A stretch of DNA of 60,893 bases from NCBI GenBank assembly GCA_030728245.1, contig JANQZX010000133.1, positions 1 through 60,893 on the forward strand, given 5' to 3'. Numbering within the stretch: the stretch's first letter is position 1; every line of letters begins with the position of its first letter. This DNA is from Saprospiraceae bacterium. Its GTDB lineage: Bacteria > Bacteroidota > Bacteroidia > Chitinophagales > Saprospiraceae. The notes below the pieces were generated by a model that made no database searches, was not told the origin of the DNA, and saw only the letters and a program-made list of their open reading frames with translations. Below are positions 25,542 through 60,893 of this stretch, piece by piece. The position numbers were made by a program, and so were the translations under genes.

Positions 25542-28500
25542 CTATAGCGTAAATCTAAGAATAAAACCGCCAGAAGCATCTGTTCTGGGAAATCCAGCTG
25601 AAGTTTTAGGTCTATTTTTCCTATAATCGAAAAAAGCCCTAAGGGAAAGTTGCCTGCTTATTTTGTATTCTGCTGAAGGTGAAAAGGTGAGTGAATAATT
25701 ACCTCTGGTAGGTTCAATAATTCCCTGATCTAACAAGTGATTAAAGGTTACATCATCTCTCATGCTCAAATTGAAGGTAATATCTAAGTCATTACCTTGA
25801 GCTGCGGTATTTCTGCCTGCCGGGTCGTTATTCCCTAAAGGTCCAGTAGATTTAGGAACAGGACGCCCCCCTCCTTTTTTATTGGAACCTGTTAGAAAAG
25901 GTATATCCAGATTTCTAAGTAAATATCCAAAACCAATAACAAACTCCTTACTTCTGGTTTCTGAAAGTTGATTACTAACAAAACTCATTGCCAGTAGCCG
26001 ATTAACTTTATAATTTACATTAAGAGACATGCCGTTTTTCAAAGTAGCGTCCACGGCAATAAGAGGAGAAAATCCTTCTTGAATGGCCACTTCGGGAATC
26101 TCGAGCCTGGCATAAAAATTACCGTTTAGTTCGTTTAAAGCCCCTGAGCTTTGTGTCCTTATAAAATCGAGTCCCGAGTTGAACCTACTCACCGTAAGGG
26201 TAGATTTATAACCGTGCGTCAAGCTAAAATTCTGGAACAATTCGCTGAATAAAGGGACTTTAGCTAATCCATTATATTGTAATCTCCAGTTAATATTGGG
26301 TAGTAACCCAAAAATATCCAATGGAATAGAGTTGGCATCAGCACCGGTATAAGCCGCAATAAATGCGGGGATTAAAACATCTTGCTGCGTCCTGCCATAC
26401 CCATAAGAATATCCATTTTTTGCTAAAGTAGTATCAGAATGTGTACCCTCACCCAAACGCATTGATACAGCTATTCTATTGGTTTCAAACTGTTTAAACA
26501 GATTAACCAGATCGTCTTTATCCTGGTTAAACAAGGTTTTAAGCGCTGAATAACTCATCGTCATCGTTCCAATATCTTTGGGAATGGCATGCGAAAAAAC
26601 CGTTGAATTATCTAGCGTAGTATCTTTAAAGAACTGAGAATGATTACTGGAGAAATTTTTATTAAACTCCAACTCGATCCTAAATTCTTTGAAAGGTTCA
26701 ACAGTCAGACGTCCGTCATAATTTTCTGCTCTGGACTGAGCCACCTCTTGATTTAGAAAAACGCTGGAAGAAATCCAGCCCTTTTTAGCTATTTCATTCA
26801 GCCAATCTGAGGCAGTATAATTTTCTGCTTCGCTTAATTGGCTGATTTTAGGTTGTAGGCCTGCTACAAAATCCCATCCCGGACCTTGAAAATCGGGTCC
26901 CATACCCATTAATTTTGCAGCTGGCATAAATCCGGGAACCACAGTACTACTTTGCAAGGTATAATTGAAACGTGCTCTTCGAAGCAATAAAAAAGGCCTT
27001 ATCAACATCCTTTCTGCCATACTGGGCTCTGACCCTTTTTTTTCTTTTTCCTCTGGTTGCGCTGGTTCCTGATTTTGATTGTCGTCCTTACTTTTCTTAG
27101 ATTTTGTGGCTGGCGCACCTCTATCAATTTTTCTTAAATAAGGAATTTTACCATAGATAGATTCAAAATTAAAATCAATGTTTGCCTGAATATTTTGGCT
27201 GTTACGAATTTGATTTCCCAGACTATCTAAATTCAGAGCAGCTGCATTCCATCCATATTGACCTTGATATTGTACTCTGGAAGTAATCCAGTCCATAAAA
27301 GGGATGACTCTGAAAGGAAGGGTATAACCCAAAGTAAAGGAGTGTTGGTAAGTTTTAGATCTTCCTAATTGCTGAATATTACTCCAAATACTATCTTTTC
27401 TAATTTGTGTGGCTGTTTCAATATTGTAATTTTCCAATAATCTGACTTCATCAGGTTCATCAATTACGGCAAAATTAGAGGCTGAGAAAGTGAATTTAAT
27501 GGCCTTCGTCAAATCCCAGTTTACATTATATTCCCTATCCCAGGAAAAGCGTTTATTAAAGAAGGTATTATATCTGTCTTCGAGGCCAGTAAATCGGTAA
27601 CGCGTGGTATTAAACAATCTTGCCATTTGGGTACCGAAAGTAAATGAATTAGGCAGAGGATTGAAGTTTATTTCTGAAATCCACTTTAAGGCACTCCCTT
27701 TTAAATTTTTAAAAGGTTGAATAAAGTCACCTTTTCTTGAAAAAGCATAATTCAAAGAACCTGTTCGACGCAAACTTTCATCAAATTCAATAAGAGGGCT
27801 TCGTTTATCTGTTTTAGTAAATGCGTAATTAAAAGAAAAGTTAGAAATATCCCAGGGTGCGGGATTACCTGGCTGTCCGCTGGGCCCTCCCGTCCGTTCT
27901 TTCCGAACATTTGTAAAATTGTAGCCTTGAATAGTATTAATTTCTCTGGAAAGTCTTTTTATAGAATCTCTATCTGCCAGAGAGGGAAAGGTTGGCAATT
28001 TATCTTTCAGCCTGATGTCCAAATCAAAAGGGTCAAACTCTGGGGTTGTGAAATTGGTTGAATATTGAGCGAAAAGAGGTAATTTAATACCCCAGGAAGC
28101 AGGGAGAAACTTATTTAGTTCAATAGAACCGGAAACATCAAAACCGGTAATAGCCTCCCTATTTCTTTGCAACACTCTTTGATCGATGGCACCAAAACCA
28201 ATAGAGGCATAATTTCCGGCTAAACTGACATTGCCCAAATCAGCCAATTGCATGTCCAGGCGGCCGATAGCGGCTACACCCCCTCTTTCATCCAGACCAG
28301 TAAGCCTAAGTTCATTTACCCATAACTCAACATTTACAGGGCTTACCTGCCCACCATTTCTATTTCTCACCCCAATCATAGCAATTTTTGCCAATCCCAG
28401 GGAGGGATTACCTTTTATACTTATTCTGTGCTGCATTTCCGGATTACCGACGGTGCCGGTGCCATCTACAATTTGGCCATATTCGTCAGTTAGTGAGAAA

Positions 28501-31500
28501 CCAGCATCATTCCTCTTAATTTTCAGGTCGGTAAAAAGAGAAAGAGCAACATCAAATTCATTTTCAGGCCTCCATACCTCTTGTTTATACTCGTCACTAA
28601 TAATATTGGCGGGTAACTTTGTGTCATCAGAAAAACGTACGGGAATTTCGTATTCGTAATAATTATTTTTAAAGTCAGATCCAATACGGATAAAGACCGA
28701 CACATCACCATCATTTAAATTTGGACCAACTACCTTTTCAGCATGAACAAACGCCTTGATTCTGTCATAAACCCGCATATCGAGACCCACATTTTTAAAT
28801 ACCGCTTTTTCCTCTCTTTCGCACAAACCCTTTATCTTCATGGTCAGTGACTGTTCGTTTTGAAGGGTATTGAAAACGCCCAGAGCCTGTTGACGTTGAA
28901 TACCCACGGGTAAAACATAGCTGAAAGGCTTTCTATTACTATTTTCCTCAATATTTACGGCATCTACATCAAATTGTGTTTGTGCATCACAGGGTACATT
29001 ATTTTGCTCATTTAAATCTTGAGAATATCTACGCCATTGATTACGAACCAATTCCATACGCGCGAATCTAAAAGTTACCTCACTTTCAAAACCGTGTAAA
29101 TACATTCTCATGAAACGGATGGATCGAAAATCCTTAATTCCACCCACAGCTACTTTATCATTGCCATTTAAAGGAACACGAAGTCTGTACCATATTCTTT
29201 CACCGTTATCACTTTCAATACGATCTGTGACAAATGGCGTCCTGTTAACATCTATTTCTCTTGGATTCAGAGGGTCGGCCAGGATGGGGATTTTATATTG
29301 AAAATAAGCCTCCGTTTCATTCAGCGTATTATCTCTGTTCAAATCTTCTGCATCGGGCACGTTGGTAGCCGATTGAAGTTGATTACCGCCCGAGTTAGAC
29401 TTCGAGTTACCTTCAGGACCATTAAAATCTTTATATCTGGATAACAGATCTGTATTTTGAGCGTAACTAGGGTCATTAAAGTTTCTGAAATTATCAGCAG
29501 CGGGGTCAGATTTTAATTTTTCTGCCGCGCGCGGATTTGATTTTGCAATACTTGACAAATAAGGCGCAAATTTTTCCGCTTCCGTGGCATCATTCATACC
29601 ATCAAGACCAATATCCTGTGCCAATCTGGAAGCCTCATCAATATCAAAAGCGTTGGTAATTTGCTGAGCAACCGGAATAACGGACCAGTTGGTATTATCT
29701 GTTCGTCGACTAGGATTTAAAGGAGCGGGAAGACCGTTTTCAAAAAATTTCCGTGAATCTCTTAATATGTCTTCTGAAACGTTTCCAAGATTTATATATA
29801 ATTCCCCTTGTTTCTTTTCGTAATTATCCACAGGTTTTTTAGGATCCGCAGGATCTAAAAATGGACTGAGCACCCAAAACTCCAGAAACTCAATATTTGA
29901 AGACTGGAAATCGTTGGTATTTAAAGCCCTCATTACCCCTCCCCATCTCGAACCTGGATTATCAAGTACCATAGAATCGCCAATAAATTTGGCTCCTTTA
30001 CTAATGCCCGGATACCCACCTGGCACATCAAAGTTGTATGGGCCTCTATTTTCGGGATAGTAAGTCATATCAAACGTAGGAATATTTGGTAGCTGGTTAG
30101 GAGCAATTTGCGCATTGGGAAATACTTCAATTTGAGGAACCTGACTTGTATAAGGATTTTTAGCATCCTGATCAGTACCTCTGGCTCCTAAATCTATTCT
30201 ATACCAACTTAATTTGGCTCTATTTGAGCCATAACGAAGGTCATTAACCAGAGAAGCCTCGGGAAATAAAGGATTATTATTAAAGGCATCGTTTTGAGGT
30301 ACGGAAGCTAATACCCAGTTGGTAACAGGCTGCCTTAGGTCTAAACTACTGGCACTACCTTCAAAGTCGTCAATATAAACCACGCCCCCTTTGTCCCTGT
30401 TGTTTTGGTTTATTGCGCGCGAATGCCCTGGTCTAATCAGAGCCGTTTCCCCTGTAAAGTTGATGGAAGACTTAGCTTTTGTGCTTATACCTGGTAAGGC
30501 ATCTACTATTTTTGTCAAAAAGGGAGCATCCCGGGAAATACCAAGGTCGAACCCATAAATTGAATTATTGATGGGATCCTCTCCAATATTTACCTTTTGC
30601 GTGAAGGGTCTTTCAAAAAGTTTTAAAGCCGTTGCACCTATATTAAAATTCTTATCAACGGCATAATCAGCTCTAACGCCAAACATACTTTTTGTTTGGA
30701 AGTTGAACAGGCCATTATCTTCATAACTTACATTAACAGGAATGCCAGAATTGAGAATAGCATCATTTAAAATTCTTACGCGCCCAATATTATAATCAAT
30801 TTCATAATCCACCCCTTCTCTTAGCGTCTGTCCACCACCACTAACGGTAACAGAGCCGGGAGGGATATTAAATGCACCTAAAGAAATTTCCGACGAAACA
30901 CTCGATTTATAATTACCCTTTATAACAAATCTATTTTTCTCCTGGTACTCCTGCGCCAAAAAGAGCGTTTTTGAGTAAAGTTCTGGAAAAGTATATTTTG
31001 CCCGCAAACCAACATCTTCAATTTGCCTTGCTAATGAACCGCCAAACGGCTCAAGAACAGGGAACATAACCCGACCATTCGATAGATTAATGGTCAAACC
31101 AGGCACAAAGTCAAATATTCCGTCCGGGGTTGGATCCCCCTGTGTATTTAATTTATCAACATTAAAAACCCTAAGTAATGGTCTTCCTGCCAGATTAGTT
31201 TCTGGTAAAAATCTTTTTAACCCTTTGCCCGGATCTTCATAAAAAATATCCAGACGAAACTCATTCTGATCAATCTGTACGGCACCAATCGGATAAATAT
31301 TTTTCATCATCAAATCCCAGGTTGGTACATCAGTTGTTTGAGTGGTACTTTTTAACATTTTTACGAAGAGAACCGTCAAAGAAGAGTCAGGCTTTGTGTT
31401 TTCTGAGTTATTCGCTAATTCCCCTACTTTGAAGGTCTTGCCATTATAAGAATACTGATAAGCGACACCTACTACCTGATCGGGCTGAACGTTTATATTC

Positions 31501-32906
31501 AGCGTAACAAACCCTAGTTCAGAATGAATATTGTATTCACTTGGCCTAAGTTTTCTCGCACTAACTTTTTCAAAATCTCTGGATTGATTCAGTTTAAACT
31601 CAGACTGAAGGATAGAAACTGCATTATCTATCTGGCGAATTCTGGGATCACTAATCACCCGATTATACAAATTATTAGAGCTATTATCTGGTAAAGGCTT
31701 ACCCGTTAAATCCTTAGGAGCGAAAGCTGTTTGTGCAGGAACAGCGGTGGGATTCACTAAAATTTCAGGTTCTCCTAAATCGGCCAGCGCAACGATATCC
31801 CTTACGTTATCTACCTCATTTCTGTCATTGGTCAACCAAACCTCAATATTTTCAAGCTTAAATAAGCTACGAATTTGAGGTAAATTTTCAAGAGCTGGTT
31901 CAAAGGCGCTACGATTGTAATGCGAAAGAAAAAAGTGCCTGTTTTCGTCGTATTGATCTGCACGAACCTCGAATTCCTGTACCTGACTTCCCCCCTGGGT
32001 TTGTATATTTTTTCTCTGTGAACGTTGCTGAGAGGCGATAGCAGTAAGGCGAAGATGACCAAATTGAAGTTCCGTTTTTAATCCGAAAAGACTTTCCGCC
32101 CCTTGGATTAGGGAACCTCTTAAAGGTAAACTTACATTACCGGCTTCAATTTTTTTAACAATCTCGTCCTCATTAAACAAATCACTGTTATAATTTAGTT
32201 TAATAACCTGCTTATCAACATCAAAAGTCGCATTCGTATTATAATTCGTTGCCAAATTCAATTTATCTCCAATCTTACCTGTTATATTCATTTGAATATT
32301 CATATCAAAATCAAACAAGAGTTGTCTCCTGCCTGCTTCGATAATAAAAGGATTTTCCATACTTTGATAGTCCATTCCAAAGGTAAGGTCAACGCCACCT
32401 TGCGGACGAATATCAATAGAATTACCTCCAAAAAGCCTGTCAATCAGACTAGCTTTCACATCAACGGTAGATAGAGGATTCAAGGAACCTGTATTATTTT
32501 CAGAACCAATACCAGCTAATTGCCTGAAATATTTTTGATAATCTTCAACTTCTCTTTTTTTCAAATACTGATCAAAGGACATGTAGGATGGATATTGAAA
32601 ATCATCCTCTCCAATTTTTTCCGTCATGATATATTTATTGGTAATGGGGTCATAAGTAACCTTTTTATCAATAATGGACGGATCTTTTAAATCAATAATA
32701 TTTACCGGTTTTGCTATACTGAAATTGTCTTTACGTTCCTTAATAGCAGGTAAAGTATCTCTTGAAACCTGGGGTTTTACCTGGGGCAAGAACCTAAGCA
32801 GGTAGGGGTTCGCTTTACCCCAAGACGGCAAATTACCCCCAGAAAGATTTTGGAAAGTGATTATACCTACAAATAAAACGAATAATACGATGGCTGAATA
32901 TTTCAT
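25542..32906 (-). CDS. sprA: SprA/Sov, outer-membrane translocon of type IX secretion
   Basis: This 2454-residue protein is the giant 36-strand outer-membrane barrel of the T9SS, which moves folded C-terminal-domain proteins to the cell surface. Length is as expected (about 2400-2500). A signal segment (residues 1-24 of the ATG start) is followed by long beta-rich stretches with SprA-type blocks, such as GGSLARQIEDVGLRAKYTFP, GGVVYIDDFEGSASSLDLRQ and VELWVNELRLTGLDERGG. The C-terminus ends on an aromatic-rich barrel strand (GGFILRFTL). The longer frame starts with TTG, so the ATG at 32906 is used. ruvA lies 69 nt upstream, a gene pair seen in other Bacteroidota. Confidence 0.96.
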   Translation of the reverse strand: MKYSAIVLFVLFVGIITFQNLSGGNLPSWGKANPYLLRFLPQVKPQVSRDTLPAIKERKDNFSIAKPVNIIDLKDPSIIDKKVTYDPITNKYIMTEKIGEDDFQYPSYMSFDQYLKKREVEDYQKYFRQLAGIGSENNTGSLNPLSTVDVKASLIDRLFGGNSIDIRPQGGVDLTFGMDYQSMENPFIIEAGRRQLLFDFDMNIQMNITGKIGDKLNLATNYNTNATFDVDKQVIKLNYNSDLFNEDEIVKKIEAGNVSLPLRGSLIQGAESLFGLKTELQFGHLRLTAIASQQRSQRKNIQTQGGSQVQEFEVRADQYDENRHFFLSHYNRSAFEPALENLPQIRSLFKLENIEVWLTNDRNEVDNVRDIVALADLGEPEILVNPTAVPAQTAFAPKDLTGKPLPDNSSNNLYNRVISDPRIRQIDNAVSILQSEFKLNQSRDFEKVSARKLRPSEYNIHSELGFVTLNINVQPDQVVGVAYQYSYNGKTFKVGELANNSENTKPDSSLTVLFVKMLKSTTQTTDVPTWDLMMKNIYPIGAVQIDQNEFRLDIFYEDPGKGLKRFLPETNLAGRPLLRVFNVDKLNTQGDPTPDGIFDFVPGLTINLSNGRVMFPVLEPFGGSLARQIEDVGLRAKYTFPELYSKTLFLAQEYQEKNRFVIKGNYKSSVSSEISLGAFNIPPGSVTVSGGGQTLREGVDYEIDYNIGRVRILNDAILNSGIPVNVSYEDNGLFNFQTKSMFGVRADYAVDKNFNIGATALKLFERPFTQKVNIGEDPINNSIYGFDLGISRDAPFLTKIVDALPGISTKAKSSINFTGETALIRPGHSRAINQNNRDKGGVVYIDDFEGSASSLDLRQPVTNWVLASVPQNDAFNNNPLFPEASLVNDLRYGSNRAKLSWYRIDLGARGTDQDAKNPYTSQVPQIEVFPNAQIAPNQLPNIPTFDMTYYPENRGPYNFDVPGGYPGISKGAKFIGDSMVLDNPGSRWGGVMRALNTNDFQSSNIEFLEFWVLSPFLDPADPKKPVDNYEKKQGELYINLGNVSEDILRDSRKFFENGLPAPLNPSRRTDNTNWSVIPVAQQITNAFDIDEASRLAQDIGLDGMNDATEAEKFAPYLSSIAKSNPRAAEKLKSDPAADNFRNFNDPSYAQNTDLLSRYKDFNGPEGNSKSNSGGNQLQSATNVPDAEDLNRDNTLNETEAYFQYKIPILADPLNPREIDVNRTPFVTDRIESDNGERIWYRLRVPLNGNDKVAVGGIKDFRSIRFMRMYLHGFESEVTFRFARMELVRNQWRRYSQDLNEQNNVPCDAQTQFDVDAVNIEENSNRKPFSYVLPVGIQRQQALGVFNTLQNEQSLTMKIKGLCEREEKAVFKNVGLDMRVYDRIKAFVHAEKVVGPNLNDGDVSVFIRIGSDFKNNYYEYEIPVRFSDDTKLPANIISDEYKQEVWRPENEFDVALSLFTDLKIKRNDAGFSLTDEYGQIVDGTGTVGNPEMQHRISIKGNPSLGLAKIAMIGVRNRNGGQVSPVNVELWVNELRLTGLDERGGVAAIGRLDMQLADLGNVSLAGNYASIGFGAIDQRVLQRNREAITGFDVSGSIELNKFLPASWGIKLPLFAQYSTNFTTPEFDPFDLDIRLKDKLPTFPSLADRDSIKRLSREINTIQGYNFTNVRKERTGGPSGQPGNPAPWDISNFSFNYAFTKTDKRSPLIEFDESLRRTGSLNYAFSRKGDFIQPFKNLKGSALKWISEINFNPLPNSFTFGTQMARLFNTTRYRFTGLEDRYNTFFNKRFSWDREYNVNWDLTKAIKFTFSASNFAVIDEPDEVRLLENYNIETATQIRKDSIWSNIQQLGRSKTYQHSFTLGYTLPFRVIPFMDWITSRVQYQGQYGWNAAALNLDSLGNQIRNSQNIQANIDFNFESIYGKIPYLRKIDRGAPATKSKKSKDDNQNQEPAQPEEKEKKGSEPSMAERMLIRPFLLLRRARFNYTLQSSTVVPGFMPAAKLMGMGPDFQGPGWDFVAGLQPKISQLSEAENYTASDWLNEIAKKGWISSSVFLNQEVAQSRAENYDGRLTVEPFKEFRIELEFNKNFSSNHSQFFKDTTLDNSTVFSHAIPKDIGTMTMSYSALKTLFNQDKDDLVNLFKQFETNRIAVSMRLGEGTHSDTTLAKNGYSYGYGRTQQDVLIPAFIAAYTGADANSIPLDIFGLLPNINWRLQYNGLAKVPLFSELFQNFSLTHGYKSTLTVSRFNSGLDFIRTQSSGALNELNGNFYARLEIPEVAIQEGFSPLIAVDATLKNGMSLNVNYKVNRLLAMSFVSNQLSETRSKEFVIGFGYLLRNLDIPFLTGSNKKGGGRPVPKSTGPLGNNDPAGRNTAAQGNDLDITFNLSMRDDVTFNHLLDQGIIEPTRGNYSLTFSPSAEYKISRQLSLRAFFDYRKNRPKTSAGFPRTDASGGFILRFTL

Positions 32907-32975
32907 GTTAAACAAAGGAAAAGTCGTTAAGGTGCAAATTTCAGCCCCTTGTATTAATAAATAAATATTTCCAAC

Positions 32976-51602: not shown

Positions 51603-54600
51603 TTAATCTTTTACACAACGCACGGAGAAACCTGACTTAATGTCATTATCGAAAACACCAACAGCATCTGAATTATAAATCATTGAAATATACCTTGATA
51701 TGAGGGGACCTGATGTACTGGATGTCCACCAGCCACCACGATTAGTTATATCGGCAAAACTTCCGCCTGAACTTCTTCCACCGCCAGGTAAAGCGCTAAA
51801 TCCTGAAGTATTAGTATTACTGTTTGGTAAAGTCCAGGAAGTAGTTGTTTTTAATTCATAACCAGCAGCTCCGAAACCTCCAAAAGGAGTGGACAATGAT
51901 TGCCAATTATTTTCTGTAGCCACATGCCAGCCCGAAGGACATAATCCTCTTGGATCATTTACTGCATACCAATTATATAATTTACCAAAGGTTGCATCAT
52001 TTGATGGGTCATTATTATAAAATGACCAGGCTCCGGAATTGGACAACGCCCATGAACCATCTATTGTAACATTTGGAATACTATCACCATTAGCATATTT
52101 AATGGTCTTTAAATTGGTAGTTAGCCATTCCAATCCATTTATGACTATAGACGAATAACGATTGTTTGAAGCATCAATAATTACTGGCAAAGTAGTGAAA
52201 GACACTTGATTACCATATCCAGTTCCAGCACTATTTGTAGCATAAGCTCTAACATAATAAGTTGTACTTCCATTCAAACCTCTCAAATTACTGGTAAATA
52301 AACCTGTTCCCGTTCCATTTTTAGTAGTATCTGTTGAAGGTAAAGTTGGATTTTGAGAAATTCCCCAAACAATTCCTCTATCTGTAATGGCAGCTCCACC
52401 ATTGGAAGAAATATTACCTCCACTTATCGCTGAAGAATCTGTAATACTAATAATATTGCTTGTTGTTAACGTAGGTACAACAGGTAAGGTAACTAAGCTA
52501 TCCAAATTTCCATAAGACGTACCCATAATATTGGTAGCAAAGGCTCGAATATAATATTTTGTATTTCCAATTAAGCCTGTAATATTTGTTGTCCAATCCA
52601 AACCTGCTGTAGTATCTATTAATTTAGTGTTTGAGATTGTTGGATTAGTTGTTGTACCATAAACTAAACCCTTTTCTGAATGTGCCGCACCTCCGGTTAA
52701 AGAAATTGTACCTCCGGAAGTGGCAGATGTAGAAGTTATCGACGTGACGGGCTTAGTAACTACCGTTGGGGGTACTGCTAACGTTGTAAAAGTTACCTCA
52801 TTACCATAATTAGTTCCTTTATTATTGGTCACGTAAGCGCGGACATAGTAGGTAGTTCCAGGAGGTGTTAAACTGTTAAGATTACTGGTGAATGATCCAG
52901 TGCCAGAACCATCAGTAGTACTAAAATGACTTAATGTAGGCATTGTTGAAGTATTCCAGACAATACCTCTTGCTGATATTATACCACCTCCATTAGCTGT
53001 TACGTTACCTCCTGAAATGGCTGAATTTGATGTTATGGAAGTAACAGGCGTTGTTGTTACTGTCGCCAGAACCGATGTAGATGTTGTAAAATTAAGTTGA
53101 GAACTGTAACCAGTGCCCGTTGCATTGGTTGCGTAGGCACGGACATAATATACAGAATCACCTAACAAACCTGTCAATTGACTTGTAAATGGTGCAACTC
53201 CTGAGCTATCTGTTGTTTTTGAGTTTAAAGTGGTTGGATTAGGTAAAGTGCTCCAAACGACCCCTTTACTTAAAATAGCAGCGCCTCCATCAGAAGTGAT
53301 TGCCCCACCGCTTCTTGCAGAAACATTGGTTATTAAATCTATCGGATTAATAGTAACCGTAGGCACTACAGGTGTTAAAGTAGTAAAACTCACCTCATTT
53401 CCATAAGCTGTTCCTGCACTATTGGTAGCATAGGAACGAACGTAATAAACCCTTGATCCAGCTAAACCTCTAATCGTATCAAGAAAAATATTATTTATTG
53501 ACCCATTGATTGACCTATTTTTAGTTACAACAGGATTTTGTAATGTATCCCAAACCACACCTCTTGCCGTAATTGGCGCCCCCCCATTATTCACTACAGA
53601 TCCACCCGTTGCAACACTTACACTAGTAATAGATGAAAGCGCTATGGTTGTAAGGGAAGGTGGCGTCGGCACAGGAGTAGTAAAAGTTACCTGATTGCCA
53701 TAAGCTACTCCCGATGAATTTACGGCATAAGCTCTTACATAGTAAGTCGTACTCCCCAATAAACCATTCATATTACTTATAAAAGAACCCGTTCCAACAC
53801 CATTTCTAGTAGTGTCATTTGCTACAGTTGGATTTGGTGAGGTACTCCAGCAGATTCCTCTGGCTGTTACCGGCGTTCCTCCGTCAGAAGATATATTGCC
53901 ACCACTTATAGCCGTAATATTAGTCACGGAGGTAGCTACATTTGTTGTTAAGGTAGCAAAGGCAGGTCCGGACCACATTGGAACGCCTGTTTGCGATAGA
54001 AATAATCCCTGACCAGGGAGACCTTGTTGAATTTTCACCCAGGCCGTTCCATTCCAAAATAAAATATCTCCTGCGGTATTTCCGGTTTGTGGAAGTCCGA
54101 CTTTTTGATTCCAACTGGCAGTATCCACCGCCGTAATGCCCTTTGCTACACTAGTACTATAAAGTGGATCCGACTCTGTGTAACTATCCAATTTATCATT
54201 CCAATAAGCCGTATCAACAGCGGTAATACCCTTTGCTACACTTGCATTAAACAAAGGATCAGATTCAGTAAAGCTATCCAATTTATCATTCCAATAAGCC
54301 GTATCAACAGCGGTAATACCCTTTGCTACACTTGCATTAAACAAAGGATCAGATTCAGTGAAACTACTTAATTTTTTATTCCAATAGGCCGTATCAACTG
54401 CTGTAATACCTTTTGAAATACTCACACTGAACAAAGGATCATATTCTGAGTTCCATAATGCCGTATCAGCAGAGGTAATACCTTTCGCCACACTAGCATT
54501 AAATAAAGGATCATTTTCCAGGAAGCTACTCAGCTTATTATTCCAATAAGCTGTATCCACCGCCGTAATACCTTTCGAAATGCTGGCATTAAACAAGGGA

Positions 54601-55043
54601 TCCAATTCTGTTAATGGACCTGTTACCTTTTCTGCGGATTTAGCATATATAGAAAAAGGTACACTAAGTAGTTGAGAAACAACAATCAAAGTATAATTTT
54701 TACCCCCATTTGGATCTGTCTCAGATTTTACATAGAATGGACCTTTTGACCAATCTATCCCTGACATCGTACCAAACAATGGCGCGCCTGAACCTATATT
54801 TAAATAAACTAATCCATTCAAATTTGTTTTTTCATTGTGTTCCTCCTGATATAATAATACATCTGCTGCAGAACCGCTTAGAATACTTATACGCATTCCC
54901 ACCGATACATTGGAAACCAATTCATTATTACTATTTCTAATAATAGCCTGATAACTGATTAAATCAGGGGCTTGACCAAAGCCAATGACATGTATCATAC
55001 TAAAAAATAAGAAGAGAATACTTCCTTTCATTACTCCTTTCAT
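51603..55043 (-). CDS. Large secreted repeat protein with Fn3-like array and FISUMP domain
   Basis: The 1146-residue exported protein has a signal peptide (MIHVIGFGQ cleavage), an N-terminal domain common to Bacteroidota surface proteins (about 20-145; APDLISYQAIIRNSNNELV), six repeats of about 30 residues (SDPLFNASVAKGITAVDTAYW type), a short linker (GLPQTGNTAGDILFWNGTAW), six fibronectin-III-like modules of about 90-100 residues ending in TYYVRAYATNSAGTGYGNQV-like strands, and a C-terminal FISUMP domain (about 965-1146; GLEWLTTNLKT, LCPSGWHVATENNW, GFSVRCVKD). No T9SS sorting domain follows FISUMP. It is the last gene of the type B locus. ATG at 55043 is used, 4 nt past the preceding stop; ATG at 55031 is possible. 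Confidence 0.85.
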   Translation of the reverse strand: MKGVMKGSILFLFFSMIHVIGFGQAPDLISYQAIIRNSNNELVSNVSVGMRISILSGSAADVLLYQEEHNEKTNLNGLVYLNIGSGAPLFGTMSGIDWSKGPFYVKSETDPNGGKNYTLIVVSQLLSVPFSIYAKSAEKVTGPLTELDPLFNASISKGITAVDTAYWNNKLSSFLENDPLFNASVAKGITSADTALWNSEYDPLFSVSISKGITAVDTAYWNKKLSSFTESDPLFNASVAKGITAVDTAYWNDKLDSFTESDPLFNASVAKGITAVDTAYWNDKLDSYTESDPLYSTSVAKGITAVDTASWNQKVGLPQTGNTAGDILFWNGTAWVKIQQGLPGQGLFLSQTGVPMWSGPAFATLTTNVATSVTNITAISGGNISSDGGTPVTARGICWSTSPNPTVANDTTRNGVGTGSFISNMNGLLGSTTYYVRAYAVNSSGVAYGNQVTFTTPVPTPPSLTTIALSSITSVSVATGGSVVNNGGAPITARGVVWDTLQNPVVTKNRSINGSINNIFLDTIRGLAGSRVYYVRSYATNSAGTAYGNEVSFTTLTPVVPTVTINPIDLITNVSARSGGAITSDGGAAILSKGVVWSTLPNPTTLNSKTTDSSGVAPFTSQLTGLLGDSVYYVRAYATNATGTGYSSQLNFTTSTSVLATVTTTPVTSITSNSAISGGNVTANGGGIISARGIVWNTSTMPTLSHFSTTDGSGTGSFTSNLNSLTPPGTTYYVRAYVTNNKGTNYGNEVTFTTLAVPPTVVTKPVTSITSTSATSGGTISLTGGAAHSEKGLVYGTTTNPTISNTKLIDTTAGLDWTTNITGLIGNTKYYIRAFATNIMGTSYGNLDSLVTLPVVPTLTTSNIISITDSSAISGGNISSNGGAAITDRGIVWGISQNPTLPSTDTTKNGTGTGLFTSNLRGLNGSTTYYVRAYATNSAGTGYGNQVSFTTLPVIIDASNNRYSSIVINGLEWLTTNLKTIKYANGDSIPNVTIDGSWALSNSGAWSFYNNDPSNDATFGKLYNWYAVNDPRGLCPSGWHVATENNWQSLSTPFGGFGAAGYELKTTTSWTLPNSNTNTSGFSALPGGGRSSGGSFADITNRGGWWTSSTSGPLISRYISMIYNSDAVGVFDNDIKSGFSVRCVKD
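54100..54615 (-). repeat. Tandem ~90-bp coding repeats in the FISUMP gene
   Basis: Six in-frame units coding for about 30 residues each, one of them 6 residues shorter, fill this part of the gene. Two consecutive units share an 86-bp block that reads the same (54184-54269 and 54274-54359, period 90 bp), while the outer units differ more. Such near-identical repeats imply recent duplication and can gain or lose units by slippage. Confidence 0.85.
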
Positions 55044-55047
55044 AGTT

Positions 55048-56055
55048 TTAATTTTTTGTACTTTTTGCTGGTGTGCCTTCTTCCTTTTTGTCATCGGCCT
55101 TATACTGCTTTATGGCCTCTGGTTTAGATGTTAATTTAAAGGCTAAAAAAATAACATGATTCCCACCTCTTGAATAATCATTAATGGCAGACAATGGCAT
55201 TTCAAACTGATAGCCAATTACAAATGGATGCCATGAAATTAAGGCATTTGCACCCATTGATTGCCTTCCCGTTAAGGCTGCATAACCATAATTCCTGAAC
55301 ACAGGAGAAACTGTAAAAAAAGAACTTGGTGACGATATAAATTTAAAATCTAACATCATATCAAATTGATAATCCGAGTTTCTTTGCGTTCGAATTAATA
55401 CATTAGGCCTTATGACAATATTTTCTTTCGCTTTTAAATCAATCCCTGAATTAATAAAGACAGTAAAGGCATTTTGAATATCATCTTCATTCGTAAAAAT
55501 AGTACTTACTCTTGGTATGATATTATAGGCTGAGACACCCAAATTAAAGCCATTCGAATAGAAATTGAACCCGAAATTAGCGTTAGGGTATGAATCCGAC
55601 CATTTATCTGGATTATTAATAGTTAAATCATCTGATTCTTCAGGTTTGAAGTTTGAGTTATCAACACTATATTGGTTATAGGTTGCTGATAAACCAAAGG
55701 AAAAACCTGTCAAGGGATCTTTCCCTTTTTTCCCACCGCTAATATGATAGGCAAAGGTCGATTCAAATCCAGAAAATCCAGTGGCACCATTTTGATCTTT
55801 AAAGCCATTAATTCCTACGCCTATTCTACTCTTAGAAAATGGATAATCCATCGAAATAACTTGCGAGTTTGGGGAATTATCAAAACCTACCAATTGTCTC
55901 TTGTATATTAAGGCGATGTTACCATTATTTTGAGCTCCTGCCAAAGCAGGGTTAGTCAAATACGGTTTAAAAAAATGTTGGTTTTGGAAGATATAATTTT
56001 GTCCATTTCCAGTAATACTATAGATAACTAAAAGGACAGGCAATAATTTTTTCAT
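55048..56055 (-). CDS. PorP/SprF family type IX secretion outer-membrane protein
   Basis: The 335-residue outer-membrane barrel has a signal peptide (cleavage near GNGQ) and the PorP/SprF opening FQNQHFFKPYLTNPALAGAQN, then RQLVGFDNSPNSQVISMDYPF and a C-terminal strand pattern, with a Lys/Glu-rich tail. Members such as SprF are needed for surface delivery of a specific partner, often encoded next to it and bearing a type B (CHU_C) signal. The gene sits between the CHU_C protein (7 nt) and the FISUMP protein (4 nt), so it is probably the dedicated partner of the former. Confidence 0.93.
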   Translation of the reverse strand: MKKLLPVLLVIYSITGNGQNYIFQNQHFFKPYLTNPALAGAQNNGNIALIYKRQLVGFDNSPNSQVISMDYPFSKSRIGVGINGFKDQNGATGFSGFESTFAYHISGGKKGKDPLTGFSFGLSATYNQYSVDNSNFKPEESDDLTINNPDKWSDSYPNANFGFNFYSNGFNLGVSAYNIIPRVSTIFTNEDDIQNAFTVFINSGIDLKAKENIVIRPNVLIRTQRNSDYQFDMMLDFKFISSPSSFFTVSPVFRNYGYAALTGRQSMGANALISWHPFVIGYQFEMPLSAINDYSRGGNHVIFLAFKLTSKPEAIKQYKADDKKEEGTPAKSTKN

Positions 56056-56062
56056 ACGCTTT

Positions 56063-57187
56063 TTATCTTAGTAAGGTAAAATTCCCTTTCAACGGAACGG
56101 CGTCTTTTGATATCTGAATGACATACCAATAATCACCCGCAGTAGCAGGATAATTATTAATCATTCCATTCCAGCCAGGCGATGATCCGGGGTATTCAAT
56201 TAATAATCGTCCTAATCTGTCAAAAATAAATACCTTTGATTCTGGTTTGAAAGCCAAGGCAGGAATAGACCATAAATCATTTTTGCCATCCTCGTTGGGT
56301 GTAAATACATTTGGTACCTTAATATCGCTCTCAATCACCTTAACCATAACATTACAGGTTTTTTCCCCAATGATAAGTGGGAAAAAGGCTATTCCTGCTG
56401 TATCGGGCTTTCCAGTCAAATTGAAAGATAAAATGCCTCCGCTACTGTTTAATAGCAAAGAATCGGCTTTTAATGTTAATCCATTAACAACGGATGAAGC
56501 TAAATTAACAGGATATGATTTCTTATTATTCCCTCCCTGATAACTTATGGTTACTACGCCGGAATAATCTAATTTTGAACCTACATCCTTTGGATTAACC
56601 ACAATGCTATTACAATTCAAAGTGGAAATTTTAGGTTCCAGTATGGTCACTGGCAGGTTAAATGTGCAGGTTTTTGCACCAAATGTTACATTAAACACAG
56701 CAAGACCTGTATCAGCAGGGGTACCCTTAATTACCAATTCAACAGATCCATTCCCATTAGCTAGTTTTCCCGGCTGTAAACTCAGGTTCAACCCTGATAC
56801 GCCAGATGATGGTAAATTAAGACCTAAAAAATAAGCCCCATTACCTTTTAAATAAGGTAATATCATAACCCCATTATAAACTTCCCCCTTGTATATCTCT
56901 TTATTATCTATAATAATCCCACTACAAGATAATTCCTCTACTTTAGATACAAGTTCATACACAGAGGGTTGCTGTATTCCCTGGTTAATATTAAAATCAG
57001 GACTTATTTCATTTGAAAAAAAAACCTGCCCGACAGTTACCTGAGCTGAGCCTATGACATCATTAACAACACCACTTCCCCCTGAGGCTGGCATAAAAGG
57101 AATACTGTCCTGTCCGTTCGCCAAATTGTTTAGACTAATACCAACAAACAGGGCGACTAATAAAAAAAATGGAAGGTGTTTATACAT
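56063..57187 (-). CDS. Surface protein with type B T9SS (CHU_C) sorting domain
   Basis: This 374-residue exported protein has a signal peptide (cleavage near LANGQ), an N-terminal segment of the common Bacteroidota type (GSAQVTVGQVFFSNE...NQGIQQPSVYEL), two similar beta-rich modules of about 95 residues, each with a CNSIVVNPK/CSGIIIDNK-type opening and a TCNF/TCNV Cys pair (about 92-285), and a gliding-associated C-terminal domain (about 290-374; VPNVFTPNEDGKNDLW, FDRLGRLL, GWNG, GDYWYVI). That domain targets proteins to T9SS export. The ATG at 57187 is used over an adjacent GTG. It is the first gene after a clear promoter. Confidence 0.92.
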   Translation of the reverse strand: MYKHLPFFLLVALFVGISLNNLANGQDSIPFMPASGGSGVVNDVIGSAQVTVGQVFFSNEISPDFNINQGIQQPSVYELVSKVEELSCSGIIIDNKEIYKGEVYNGVMILPYLKGNGAYFLGLNLPSSGVSGLNLSLQPGKLANGNGSVELVIKGTPADTGLAVFNVTFGAKTCTFNLPVTILEPKISTLNCNSIVVNPKDVGSKLDYSGVVTISYQGGNNKKSYPVNLASSVVNGLTLKADSLLLNSSGGILSFNLTGKPDTAGIAFFPLIIGEKTCNVMVKVIESDIKVPNVFTPNEDGKNDLWSIPALAFKPESKVFIFDRLGRLLIEYPGSSPGWNGMINNYPATAGDYWYVIQISKDAVPLKGNFTLLR

Positions 57188-57250
57188 CACTTTTGTAGTT
57201 GTATTTAAAACTATTAAACTGTATTAAACTGAAATTTAAGGAAGTAGCTA

Positions 57251-57281
57251 CAAATATAAACAAATTAATTATATATTACAA
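57251..57281 (-). promoter_or_regulatory. Bacteroidota-type promoter of the CHU_C/PorP/FISUMP operon
   Basis: On the minus strand TTG (57281-57279) is followed after exactly 20 nt by TATATTTG (57258-57251), a full match to both consensus elements. The expected transcription start near 57244 would give a leader of about 57 nt before the ATG at 57187. It is the best promoter match I found in the window. Confidence 0.65.
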
Positions 57282-57371
57282 TAATTATAAACTTAATATG
57301 TTAATTTAAATTTATCACCCTAAAAAGCGTTTTAAATAAACAAAAATCAAATTTTCATTTTTTTTACATCC

Positions 57372-58505
57372 TTAAAATTGATATCCGACACCTAGAAAAG
57401 TAGCCAAAAATGAGTTTGTTTTTGATGTATTTCCTTTTGATATACCCATTTTAGCTTCGGTAAAAAAAGATAATCTTGAAGTAACCTGAAGAGATCCACC
57501 TATACTTCCCATCATCAAAATTTCAGTTGAAATCTTGTTACTTACTTGACTATATTTATAGCTACTATTATTGGAAAGTTCAATAAATTCATAGGTGATT
57601 TGGGCAGGCATAGTTATTTTAGCACCCAGACCAATACCTGAATATACCTTGATTTTTTTCTTATTCAGAAAATAATAGTTTGTTGAAATAGTTGGTATAA
57701 TATTTCTCTCTATTCCTTTTATTTCATGTAAAGTAAATGTCCCCAGCGGATTATTACTGGAAGAAAGCATCACTTTGCTGCTGCTTAAGTCTTCTGTTTC
57801 AAAAAAATGTTGCGTGAAAATAAGAGAAGGTACTAAGCTAAACCTTGGTGAGATTACCCATTCTGTGGACCACTGCAATGCTACCGGATTTTTTATCTCA
57901 TCTAAACTTAGTGGTATAAATGCCCCCGCTGACAGGCCAACTTTTATGCTGGTTTTTGATTCCTTTTTATTTTCATCTGGTATTTTTATTTCTTCTTTTT
58001 TTTCAACCAGGCTAACACTCAATGTATCTACAATCTGTAAAATGGACTCTTGTTTTTTATCTATCTTTTTGACCTCCGATATTATTTCCTCTTGGTGGGT
58101 TAAAGCTTCCGACGGAACAGCTAAAATGGGTTGATTCACGACAGGCGAAACTAACTTTTCCTTTAACACACGATTAACATAAGCTAATTTGTATAGCGTA
58201 TCATGAATATATTTTTCTTTCTCAACGATAATGGTATCCCTTACTATCGATGGATTATATTGGCTATTCTCTGAAAAAGATTTTTCCAGTTTCAAATGAT
58301 GTAAGGCAGTGCCACTCCAAACAGCATAACCCGTTATAAAAGGTAATAAAATCCACGGTAGAACTTTCAGCCAATTCCGTCTCTTTGATTGATATTGATC
58401 TAATTTAGAAGTCAAATCATACCAGTCCTCCTCCTCCGGATCAATGATTGAACGAGCATTTTTCAAATTTTCGGAAAATATATGGTCGAATTCGTTATCG
58501 CTCAT
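57372..58505 (-). CDS. Anti-sigma-like single-pass protein with C-terminal barrel-like region
   Basis: The 377-residue protein has a short acidic cytoplasmic N-terminus (about 1-42; FDHIFSENLKNARSIIDPEEEDWYDL), one membrane helix (about 46-64), a helical charged linker (about 75-180), and a beta-rich C-terminal part (about 185-377) that resembles a Bacteroidota outer-membrane beta-barrel domain and ends GVGYQF. The layout and its place 24 nt after the ECF sigma gene indicate an anti-sigma factor that senses the envelope. There is no clear zinc-binding anti-sigma motif, so this is inference from context. How a barrel-like domain and an inner-membrane helix fit in one chain is unclear. Confidence 0.65.
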   Translation of the reverse strand: MSDNEFDHIFSENLKNARSIIDPEEEDWYDLTSKLDQYQSKRRNWLKVLPWILLPFITGYAVWSGTALHHLKLEKSFSENSQYNPSIVRDTIIVEKEKYIHDTLYKLAYVNRVLKEKLVSPVVNQPILAVPSEALTHQEEIISEVKKIDKKQESILQIVDTLSVSLVEKKEEIKIPDENKKESKTSIKVGLSAGAFIPLSLDEIKNPVALQWSTEWVISPRFSLVPSLIFTQHFFETEDLSSSKVMLSSSNNPLGTFTLHEIKGIERNIIPTISTNYYFLNKKKIKVYSGIGLGAKITMPAQITYEFIELSNNSSYKYSQVSNKISTEILMMGSIGGSLQVTSRLSFFTEAKMGISKGNTSKTNSFLATFLGVGYQF

Positions 58506-58529
58506 GATATGTCAGGATTGTCAGTTTTT

Positions 58530-59075
58530 CTATACATATTGGTATTTAATCATTAATGCTTTCAGTTGAATTCTTGCTTTCGCAAGATTAGATTTAGAGG
58601 TTCCCGTGGAGATATTTAGCAGTTGAGCAATTTCCTCATGAGATAATTGCTCTATCACATAAAGATTGAAAACGAGACGATATGCAGGAGAAAGTTTTTG
58701 AATAAGCAGTATCTTCTCCTCAATATCCATTTTATTAAGCCATTGTATATCAAATCGTTCTGATGTATCAGGAATTTCATCCTTTTCACTGGTTTTGATT
58801 TTATTCACATCGGCCCTATACTTATCAATCGCCACTCTTTTAGCCAGTTGTGTTATCCAACCCTTAAAATTAGTGCCTTGTTGATAAAGATTTATTTTAG
58901 TGAAAATTTTAAAAAACACATCGTTTGTGACCTCCTTTGATTCTTCAAAAGATCCAACATAACGCCTGACAATAGAAAAAACGAAACCATAATAGAACTC
59001 ATAAATTTCTTTTTGAGCGGCTCTATTATCAACCCTGCAACTATTTAGTACTTTCTCTAATTTTTCATCAATCAT
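58530..59075 (-). CDS. ECF-family RNA polymerase sigma factor
   Basis: The 181-residue protein has sigma region 2 (about 20-90; FYYGFVFSIVRRYVGSFEESKEVTNDVF, FKGWITQLAKRVAIDKYR) and region 4 with a helix-turn-helix (about 125-178; LSPAYRLVFNLYVIEQLSHEEIAQLLNISTGTSKSNLAKAR), and no region 1.1 or 3. It should recruit RNA polymerase to a small regulon. It heads the run ending in the barrel-like protein and sits beside the CHU_C operon, so that operon is a natural target, though the promoter found there has the housekeeping form. Confidence 0.95.
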   Translation of the reverse strand: MIDEKLEKVLNSCRVDNRAAQKEIYEFYYGFVFSIVRRYVGSFEESKEVTNDVFFKIFTKINLYQQGTNFKGWITQLAKRVAIDKYRADVNKIKTSEKDEIPDTSERFDIQWLNKMDIEEKILLIQKLSPAYRLVFNLYVIEQLSHEEIAQLLNISTGTSKSNLAKARIQLKALMIKYQYV

Positions 59076-59131: not shown

Positions 59132-60607
59132 TTATACTGATGTTTTTCTGTTTACTACATGAATTATTATTCCGTAAAACAATAAGATTATAGTGCCTAA
59201 TACCCCTGACAGAATGGGATCGATTGAACTATTTAACCAACTGAATGACTCAGGTAAATTTCGGGAAAAAGTACTCCATGAAATGACTATTATACTCAAA
59301 GAAATAGCCACTAAACCATGGAAATAGGATAATTTTATTTTGAGTAAAGCGAGTAAAAATAGCCCAAGTATGCCTCCTCCAAAAATACCAGATAATTGCC
59401 ACCAAACATCTAGCGCACTTTTTGCCTGAATCATCCAAATGGCAAATAAGGTTCCAAGGATGCCCCAAACCCAGGTAGCTGATTGAAGGATGAACATTTG
59501 TTTCTTTTCACTTATATTTTTATCAAATCTTCCTTTTAAGAAATCAATCCAAATAACAGTAGCTGAGCAATTTAGTGCTGAGTCAACGGTACTCATTGCT
59601 GCGGCAATAATGGCAGCAAGAATGAGACCTTTGAGTCCCACAGGCATTTGTGTAGCAATAAAATAAGGGAAAACCTGATCTCCTTTGGTAATATTAGAAG
59701 GAAGGGAATCCTGTATTTGATAAAAATAAAACAAGGCTGTTCCGATAAAGAGAAAGCAAACGGTAAGAAACAAATAAATAATGGTCGCCAGTTTCATAGA
59801 TTTTGCCGCTTCCTCAGTGTTCTTAACCGTGGTATATTTTTGAACATAATTCTGGTCTGCCAAAAGATTCCTAAGATTTTCCGTTAAACCATAGATGATC
59901 ATCACCCATATCGTTCTTTTATCAAATGAAAAATCAGATAATCCCCAGGAAAATTTACCCGTATCGTAGGCTTGAGAAAAAAGTTCCGGAGAAGACAAAA
60001 ACACCATATTTCCTAAAAATATTACGGTGTAAATAATACCGGCAATCATTACAATAGATTGCATAACATCTGTCCAGATAACTGCCTCTACCCCACCCAT
60101 GAGCGTATATATAATGGTGATAAAACCAATGGCTATGATGATCCATATTAAACTCCCACCAATGAATGGCTGAATGAGTAAAGCCACCAAATACAAAATA
60201 ACGGCCATGCGACCCACCATGAATAATAAAAAGGAAAATGCTGCATATAATCTGGCCCAGGAACCAAGACGTTCCTCTAAAAAGGTATAAACGGAGATTA
60301 GATTTAATTTTCTGTATAATGGAATAATCTTAACCACGGCCAACCAGCTTACCGGTATCATGCAGAGGGAAAAAATAATGGGATGCCAGTCAGAGTCAAA
60401 AGCTTTTCCTGGTGTAGCGATGTATGAAATACTACTGGTATAGGCACTCATCACAGCCAAACCTGCTGCCCATCCTGGTATTTTCCCATTTGCCGTCATA
60501 AACTGACCTGCCGTTTTCATTTTTCTGGCAAAATAAAAGCCCATCCCCAATAAAATAAGGCCGTATAACGTAAGAACCACATAGTCAAAAAAAGCTAAGT
60601 TCCCCAT
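59132..60607 (-). CDS. Sodium:solute symporter (SSS family)
   Basis: The 491-residue inner-membrane protein has about 13 helices and SSS motifs, including the N-terminal FYFARKMKTAGQFMTANGKIPGWAAGLAVMSAYTSSISYIATPGKAF and the GGVEAVIWTDVMQ segment. SSS carriers import sugars, sialic acid, amino acids or vitamins with Na+. The aldolase-family gene 19 nt upstream suggests N-acetylneuraminate or a related sugar acid as substrate, but the alignment cannot decide. The ATG at 60607 is used over a TTG two codons upstream. Confidence 0.92.
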   Translation of the reverse strand: MGNLAFFDYVVLTLYGLILLGMGFYFARKMKTAGQFMTANGKIPGWAAGLAVMSAYTSSISYIATPGKAFDSDWHPIIFSLCMIPVSWLAVVKIIPLYRKLNLISVYTFLEERLGSWARLYAAFSFLLFMVGRMAVILYLVALLIQPFIGGSLIWIIIAIGFITIIYTLMGGVEAVIWTDVMQSIVMIAGIIYTVIFLGNMVFLSSPELFSQAYDTGKFSWGLSDFSFDKRTIWVMIIYGLTENLRNLLADQNYVQKYTTVKNTEEAAKSMKLATIIYLFLTVCFLFIGTALFYFYQIQDSLPSNITKGDQVFPYFIATQMPVGLKGLILAAIIAAAMSTVDSALNCSATVIWIDFLKGRFDKNISEKKQMFILQSATWVWGILGTLFAIWMIQAKSALDVWWQLSGIFGGGILGLFLLALLKIKLSYFHGLVAISLSIIVISWSTFSRNLPESFSWLNSSIDPILSGVLGTIILLFYGIIIHVVNRKTSV

Positions 60608-60626
60608 TGTCAATATTTTAATAAAA

Positions 60627-60893
60627 CTATTTTTTTAAGAATGGATATTTATCCTCTAAATACTTCATGGAAGATTCCAACTTTTTTAATCCCTCATTTG
60701 CCATTGGAAAAAGAGGCGGCATAGCCTTATTTTGGCAAATGCCTTTCAAAGCGAGCGCTGCCTTTATGCCCTTCATGAATCCGTCAAAATATACCGCTCG
60801 GTCCAGCTCTTTCACAATTTGCTGAAATTCCATTACTTTAGTCAAATCTCCTTGTTGAAAGGCTTCGAATAAACCGACAAAAAGCTGTGGATA
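60627..60893 (-). CDS. DapA/NanA-family class I aldolase, C-terminal part
   Basis: Only the last 88 residues are in the window, and the start lies beyond the right edge. They read YPQLFVGLFEAFQQGDLTKV at the edge, then ELDRAVYFDGFMKGIKAALA and GLKKLESSMKYLEDKYPFLKK. This fits the C-terminal helical bundle of the dihydrodipicolinate synthase/N-acetylneuraminate lyase family. The catalytic Lys and Tyr are outside the window. With the sodium symporter behind it, N-acetylneuraminate lyase or a keto-sugar-acid aldolase is more likely than lysine-pathway DapA. Confidence 0.72.
   Translation of the reverse strand, partial: YPQLFVGLFEAFQQGDLTKVMEFQQIVKELDRAVYFDGFMKGIKAALALKGICQNKAMPPLFPMANEGLKKLESSMKYLEDKYPFLKK

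Follow-up and report, generated by a model that had tools for sequence, protein, structure and literature searches.

We analyzed a stretch of 60,893 nucleotides from a Saprospiraceae bacterium (assembly GCA_030728245.1, contig JANQZX010000133.1, positions 1 to 60,893; hereafter the window), in which five genes follow one another on the minus strand. In the order of transcription, they encode an extracytoplasmic function (ECF) sigma factor, a candidate anti-sigma factor resembling the Dma proteins, a CHU_C protein that ends in a type B C-terminal domain (CTD) of the type IX secretion system (T9SS), a PorP/SprF protein, and a long, presumably fibrous protein with a FISUMP tip. The features are as follows.

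58530..59075, minus strand: ECF sigma factor, 181 aa (PF08281 2.7e-14, PF04542 6.4e-11, TIGR02937)
57372..58505, minus strand: Dma-like candidate anti-sigma factor, 377 aa (assigned by its architecture; no Pfam or NCBIfam match at E 0.1)
57251..57258, minus strand: TATATTTG, a -7-like element 71 nt before the CHU_C start, invariant in 7/7 genus members
56063..57187, minus strand: CHU_C anchor, 374 aa, with a type B CTD (TIGR04131 85.9 bits, cut-off 35)
55048..56055, minus strand: PorP/SprF outer-membrane protein, candidate shuttle and anchor (PF11751; TIGR03519 166.7 bits, cut-off 90.55)
51603..55043, minus strand: FISUMP fiber protein, 1146 aa (PF09603 133 bits; NF053851 38.4 bits, cut-off 60)

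These coordinates and family profiles confirm the order and the single direction that a preliminary description of this DNA had given the five genes; the span named there (55048-59075) excludes the FISUMP fiber gene. For the latter, a start at 55043 is likelier than that of the listed open reading frame (ORF), 55094, because the longer form would overlap the PorP/SprF gene. From the SSF transporter gene upstream to the DUF5916 gene downstream, the gaps are 56 nt (to sigma), 24 nt (to Dma-like), 184 nt (to CHU_C), 7 nt (to PorP/SprF), 4 nt (to FISUMP), and 100 nt (to DUF5916). The window also encodes SprA, a T9SS translocon protein (25542-32915; 2368 bits at 25545-32696), which lies ~19 kb away from the fiber gene and from which, among the core components, the presence of a T9SS was judged. 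In the same genome, PorP/SprF is matched 18 times (15 above the cut-off) and the type B CTD 24 times (23 above).

The CHU_C protein carries a candidate signal peptide, a GVQQ domain (~25-85), two Ig-like domains (~90-285), and the type B CTD (289-374). Its structure model (pLDDT 80, pTM 0.47) contains the two Ig-like domains and the CTD, and the GVQQ part is strand-rich at modest confidence (blocks with pLDDT 45-74), most alignment rows covering GVQQ only. A fold search with this model gave nothing beyond low TM-scores, the matches being stacked Ig-like proteins and further beta proteins such as invasin and S-layer proteins. As far as the available text of the reports goes, the pairing of a type B substrate with a shuttle, a PorP/SprF protein encoded immediately behind it, has been published, examples being SprB-SprF and Fjoh_3952-Fjoh_3951 (PMC12618676, PMC9143113), and the earlier view that SprF-type proteins are partners of type B substrates holds up both there and in the CHU_C and PorP/SprF genes present here. 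The window shares with these pairs the TIGR04131-type CTD and the PorP/SprF gene directly behind it; it differs from them, on the same partial text, in that its substrate is just 374 aa long and carries GVQQ, and in that the third gene encodes a fiber without a CTD of its own.

That fiber protein begins with a domain resembling the N-terminus of Bdellovibrio MAT proteins (MAT_N-like, here FIBN; ~15-147), continues with Fn3-like repeats that score below the cut-off, and ends in the FISUMP tip (968-1145). All 33 members of our FIBN alignment A2 match the MAT N-terminal family NF053851 at E<0.01 (best 2.7e-13); the FIBN profile matched no sequence in the PDB. To judge from the available text on the MAT fibers of Bdellovibrio bacteriovorus (PMC10769870), the likeness consists of a related N-terminal domain, an extended shaft, and a tip domain set apart from it, whereas the window differs in matching under the family cut-off and in encoding a T9SS-exported partner next door; structure prediction here covered single chains. 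We found no T9SS CTD in the window fiber, and none of the FIBN proteins examined, some of which are cut at locus ends, matches the type A or type B CTD profiles; the fibers thus seem to need help for their placement. A signal-peptide protein without a CTD that adjoins a T9SS substrate gene also recalls the TANFOR polymorphic toxins, as they appear in the accessible part of their description (PMC7073777), but the window protein has no TANFOR model match and ends in FISUMP rather than in any known toxin domain. With no TANFOR model among its NCBIfam families at E 0.1, we rejected the toxin reading. The shaft region at 54121-54446 holds 3.6 copies of a 90-bp tandem repeat; complete fiber ORFs within the genus range from 1051 to 1163 aa, and the repeat copy number may vary.

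A gene for a putatively T9SS-exported anchor directly before the fiber gene recurs in many Bacteroidota. A scan of a genome collection confirmed at least 577 FIBN relatives, of which the best 80 loci, with 87 FIBN genes, were kept. In 63/87 cases, the gene directly before FIBN encodes a protein with GVQQ and a type A CTD, at a median gap of 6 nt; 61 of these anchors are 154-254 aa long, and two are 527 and 917 aa. PorP preceded by a GVQQ and type B gene stands before FIBN in 4/87, and PorP preceded by a type B gene without a GVQQ match in 1/87. By comparison, such an anchor lies upstream of only 1/340 of the other genes of at least 200 aa in the same loci. The GVQQ profile is common to the CHU_C anchor and the type A anchors, and TIGR04183 scores above its cut-off in 10/10 of the short anchors tested (of 16). 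Four anchors missed by the GVQQ profile, and therefore outside the 63, match TIGR04183 (L159, L160, L162, L164). In the reverse direction, an anchor query returned 30 loci, two of which were dropped as long CTD proteins without GVQQ; FIBN follows the anchor in 23/28, precedes it in one, and is on neither side in four. FIBN proteins occur in 65/100 relatives searched, the genus itself included. In the portions of the searched literature available to us, we recognized no description of this anchor-fiber pair, and we make no wider claim on what is in print.

The anchor and the fiber may also be in contact. Distances between FIBN domains correlate with those between the GVQQ domains of the partners at r 0.71, and with those between the CTDs of the same partner proteins at r 0.60 (75 of 78 pairs, the others being removed at 90% identity; the bootstrapped difference spans 0.028 to 0.194); in the forward loci alone, the values are 0.69 and 0.54 (61 pairs). 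We take this tracking as support, not proof, of docking. The genus also encodes giant adhesins, with ORFs of 8062, 6649, and at least 3270 aa (G001:C14, loci L062, L298, and L299; G003:C11, loci L300 and L301; G000:C122, locus L055), that end in the window-type Ig/type B module (57-59% identity) followed by PorP, which is 53% identical to that of the window in L055 and L062. In the two giant adhesins that are readable to the N-terminus, those of G001 and G003, neither a GVQQ match there nor a fiber gene behind PorP was found; the one in the window's own genome is cut by the contig end. It is unlikely, though consistent with adjacency, which alone shows just a functional link, that the anchor and the fiber are independent surface proteins coexpressed without contact since they are useful in the same conditions: no T9SS signal profile matched the fiber, FIBN distances follow those of GVQQ more closely than those of the CTD, and the two GVQQ-less adhesins with the same export module have no fiber gene behind them. 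We infer docking on GVQQ because of these same three observations. The type B CTD would direct CHU_C to export by the T9SS; the neighboring PorP/SprF protein would then collect and retain it, as in the published pairs, and CHU_C would present its N-terminal GVQQ domain. The FISUMP fiber, with a Sec-type signal and no T9SS signal, would dock on this base via its MAT_N-like domain, its tip pointing outward. In most of the other Bacteroidota loci fetched, the base carries a type A CTD instead, with no PorP gene between it and the fiber gene.

Several points weigh against this base-and-fiber scheme. The evidence consists of gene order and domain content, from which the steps of contact, export, and expression are deduced. 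The forward loci were picked by FIBN and the reverse loci by similarity to a paired anchor, so that the counts are enrichments rather than censuses, and the reverse loci lie in the same 100 genomes as the FIBN occurrence search. Among the 87 FIBN genes, 10 have an unrelated gene upstream, four have another FIBN gene, one has a CTD protein without GVQQ, and four stand at a locus edge; FIBN genes also occur in rows that show no anchor (L184, L185, L179). Of the three compared domains, the CTD has diverged furthest (mean identity 0.33 versus 0.40 and 0.54), and saturation may partly explain its lower correlation. The FIBN domain of the window matches NF053851 at 1e-9 and 38.4 bits, under the cut-off of 60 (28.9 bits for the fiber in the genome search). 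Exceptions to the type B arrangement exist as well: L057 has a type B anchor followed by a fiber gene with no PorP, L168 has a PorP fragment before the fiber gene and no type B gene before PorP, and the type B/PorP/fiber set of L226 lacks a GVQQ match. As a separate observation, L184:842-8421 contains six co-oriented FIBN genes, next to which no anchor gene was seen.

Within the 80 loci, the sorting signal and the presence of PorP go together: in each of the five cases in which PorP immediately precedes FIBN, the gene ahead of PorP carries a type B CTD, and type A anchors are never separated from their fiber gene by PorP. Three of the five type B cases (L188, L189, L190) are taken as the genus members G003, G006, and G001, and so add nothing independent to the genus count. 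The remaining two are from Pedobacter sp. BAL39 (L211), where genes for GVQQ with TIGR04131, PorP, and a collagen-like fiber stand in a row, and from a Bacteroidales genome (L226). We do not claim that the type B form evolved separately in Pedobacter, a further point against the scheme above: the tree asks for two to three changes, but a single clade was not rejected (approximately unbiased [AU] test p 0.78).

The two genes upstream of the cassette belong to a widespread kind of regulator pair. The sigma factor is, from its family matches, an ordinary ECF factor, 97-98% identical in 6/6 other genus members, and its homologues were matched in 100/100 genomes searched. The Dma-like protein has a polar N-terminus (1-45), a hydrophobic stretch (46-66), a polar segment (~67-187; 59% polar or small residues over 67-187), and a C-terminal part (188-377) that ends in YQF and is a candidate barrel. 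The idea that it is an anti-sigma-like barrel thus fits its position, its architecture, and its counterparts elsewhere, but finds no profile match of its own, as neither an N-terminal sigma-binding family nor a barrel family of Pfam or NCBIfam was matched at E 0.1. Two other features make the assignment less sure: the best 19-residue mean hydropathy of the stretch at 46-66 is low (1.32), and the structure model, built from an alignment of two close rows, has a pLDDT of 28.6 and no usable fold. Elsewhere, 23 non-genus sigma loci were returned, of which 20 were taken in longer stretches, one per genome (G029, G033, and G048 were omitted). The next same-strand gene encodes a protein of 388-639 aa in 20/20 of them, with a best N-terminal 19-residue hydropathy >1.6 in 16/20; one locus carries a second sigma gene with a different neighbor. 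Ten of the 21 counterparts that occupy this position after a sigma homologue were compared; six match the barrel families OMP_b-brl/OMP_b-brl_2 at E<0.01, two of them above the Pfam cut-off. According to the accessible text on the Dma/Das proteins of Bacteroides thetaiotaomicron (dual membrane-spanning anti-sigma factors acting with an ECF21 sigma; PMC13088901), these are encoded beside their ECF gene and have an N-terminal sigma-binding domain, one transmembrane helix, a long disordered tether, and a C-terminal beta-barrel. The window pair resembles them in gene position (24 nt, on the same strand) and in overall layout, in that the polar N-terminus, the hydrophobic stretch, the polar segment, and the candidate barrel may correspond to these four parts. 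The two proteins would then form an envelope-spanning sigma/anti-sigma pair, which may raise the expression of its neighbors.

The five-gene order is kept in 7/7 genomes of the genus, in agreement with the suggestion, made from the window alone, of a self-contained sensing and display unit. Some of these orders are incomplete: in G006, the locus is divided between contig C118 (sigma and Dma-like) and contig C151 (CHU_C to DUF5916), each of which breaks off at that point, and the CHU_C match contains one in-frame stop, while the contig of G003 ends within the FISUMP gene and that of G004 within DUF5916. When the same order was looked for in other Bacteroidota, it was found within the genus only. 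In a protein search of 100 genomes, the Dma-like protein was found in the seven genus members and weakly in 2/93 other relatives, with one real match (27%); of these two loci, L064 holds a sigma gene with a Dma-like gene but no T9SS genes in line behind them, and L065 lacks a pair of this kind. A profile search for it in 395 genomes of the class matched the window's own genome and 0/394 others, with few candidates scored per genome, so that distant relatives may escape. None of the 20 non-genus sigma/Dma-like loci has type B, PorP, GVQQ, or fiber genes downstream on the same strand (1.1 to 9.6 kb seen). Conversely, four sister CHU_C-PorP-fiber cassettes with visible upstream DNA have no sigma gene there (L058 and L063 in G005, L172 in G001, and L059 in G006, the PorP of which lies in two frames); three others (L171, L169, L170) end too near for their upstream region to be judged. 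We therefore rejected a five-gene self-contained unit as a general feature: it was not found outside the genus in these searches, and the cassette and the pair each occur separately. Since such pairs are common and the cassette is absent from the stretches seen at 20 of their loci, the link between the two is local.

A unit of this kind could still exist in the genus, in which the Dma-like protein would sense either the outer membrane or the structure on display, and the sigma factor would drive the CHU_C operon. We consider this possible but rather doubtful. Besides the conserved order, the absence of a terminator-like site in the 184-nt gap speaks for it, and the available text of PMC13088901 reports that Dma2 affects mainly its own operon, adjacent genes, and polysaccharide utilization loci. 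Furthermore, after the 20 other Dma-like genes, TIGR04183 is found well above its cut-off once (L147) and at the cut-off once (L143), and the next genes of L137 and, weakly, L132 match our in-house type A profile only (background 9/184 genes). On the other side stand the cassettes without the pair, the pairs without the cassette, and the sequences upstream of the genes. The -7-like element TATATTTG is invariant in the 184-nt gap in all seven genus members, the -33 element not being conserved there. We take it to resemble the -7 element of Bacteroidota housekeeping promoters, with the consensus TAnnTTTG, which is absent from the 225 nt before the sigma gene. A promoter motif common to the sigma and CHU_C genes was rejected, as only one low-complexity gapped word, TTTT-19-AAAT, was shared. 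A housekeeping promoter for anchors in general is likewise weak, TAnnTTTG being present in 25/67 anchor upstream regions versus 14.8 expected; two-box patterns occur in one of these regions when TTTG-based (0.8 expected) and in five when the looser TTG-based form is used (1.2 expected). The sister cassette L058, moreover, lies behind a LuxR-type regulator instead.

As observations in their own right, L058:3937-5675 and L177:9756-13533 have a gene for a LuxR-type response-regulator-like protein and one for an AraC-type helix-turn-helix (HTH) protein (weak in L058) before the sister fiber or anchor genes, the regulator pair of L177 being two tandem copies; this LuxR-type/AraC-type pair is a possible alternative regulator of such cassettes. 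In L143:782-1711 and L147:8694-9620, which come from different genera, the gene after the Dma-like gene encodes a dioxygenase-like protein ending in a type A T9SS signal, at the cut-off in the former and above it in the latter. The DNA 5′ of the sigma gene, 59132-60893 (compare L048:1470-4949), carries SSF transporter, DHDPS-family, and BNR-repeat genes that resemble a sialic-acid uptake and use cluster.

This upstream cluster bears on the reading that the pair and the cassette are accidental neighbors, the pair regulating elsewhere, in its own operon or the SSF/sialidase-like cluster, and the adjacency stemming from the close kinship of the genus genomes. We give this reading a little less than an even chance. 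The pair lies nearer to SSF than to CHU_C, the outer neighbors BNR, DHDPS, SSF, and DUF5916 are also kept where the contigs reach, and the arrangement was not found outside the genus; yet the order is kept in all seven genomes though the other cassettes of the genus lie elsewhere. Because the pair and the cassette each occur without the other outside this arrangement, the locus looks like two neighboring units, with control of the cassette by the pair possible. Taking the genes and their domains as a whole, we regard as probable that a T9SS fiber-display cassette adjoins a sigma/anti-sigma pair that perhaps raises the expression of its neighbors, and the window is most likely the type B version of a widespread T9SS base-plus-fiber pair that stands, in one genus, beside a Dma-type regulator pair. 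Given that the sigma-linked arrangement is seen in one genus only, claims on sensing are premature until there are expression data.

In broader terms, we tentatively propose, with confidence somewhat short of even, a Bacteroidota-wide two-part T9SS display of MAT-type fibers, in which a small exported base would offer GVQQ as the receptor for the fiber N-terminus and would carry an interchangeable signal, either type A alone or type B with PorP/SprF; in the genus studied here, one such cassette may have come under a Dma-type sensor. For FIBN fibers that have no T9SS signal, the frequently adjacent T9SS-exported partner offers a specific candidate anchor and perhaps also a route to the surface, and the question of what MAT N-terminal domains bind becomes directly testable. 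The type A and type B versions allow one to ask whether the sorting signal decides between a fixed and a mobile fiber. If true, the two-part display would identify the sort of surface element on which MAT fibers are thought to depend.

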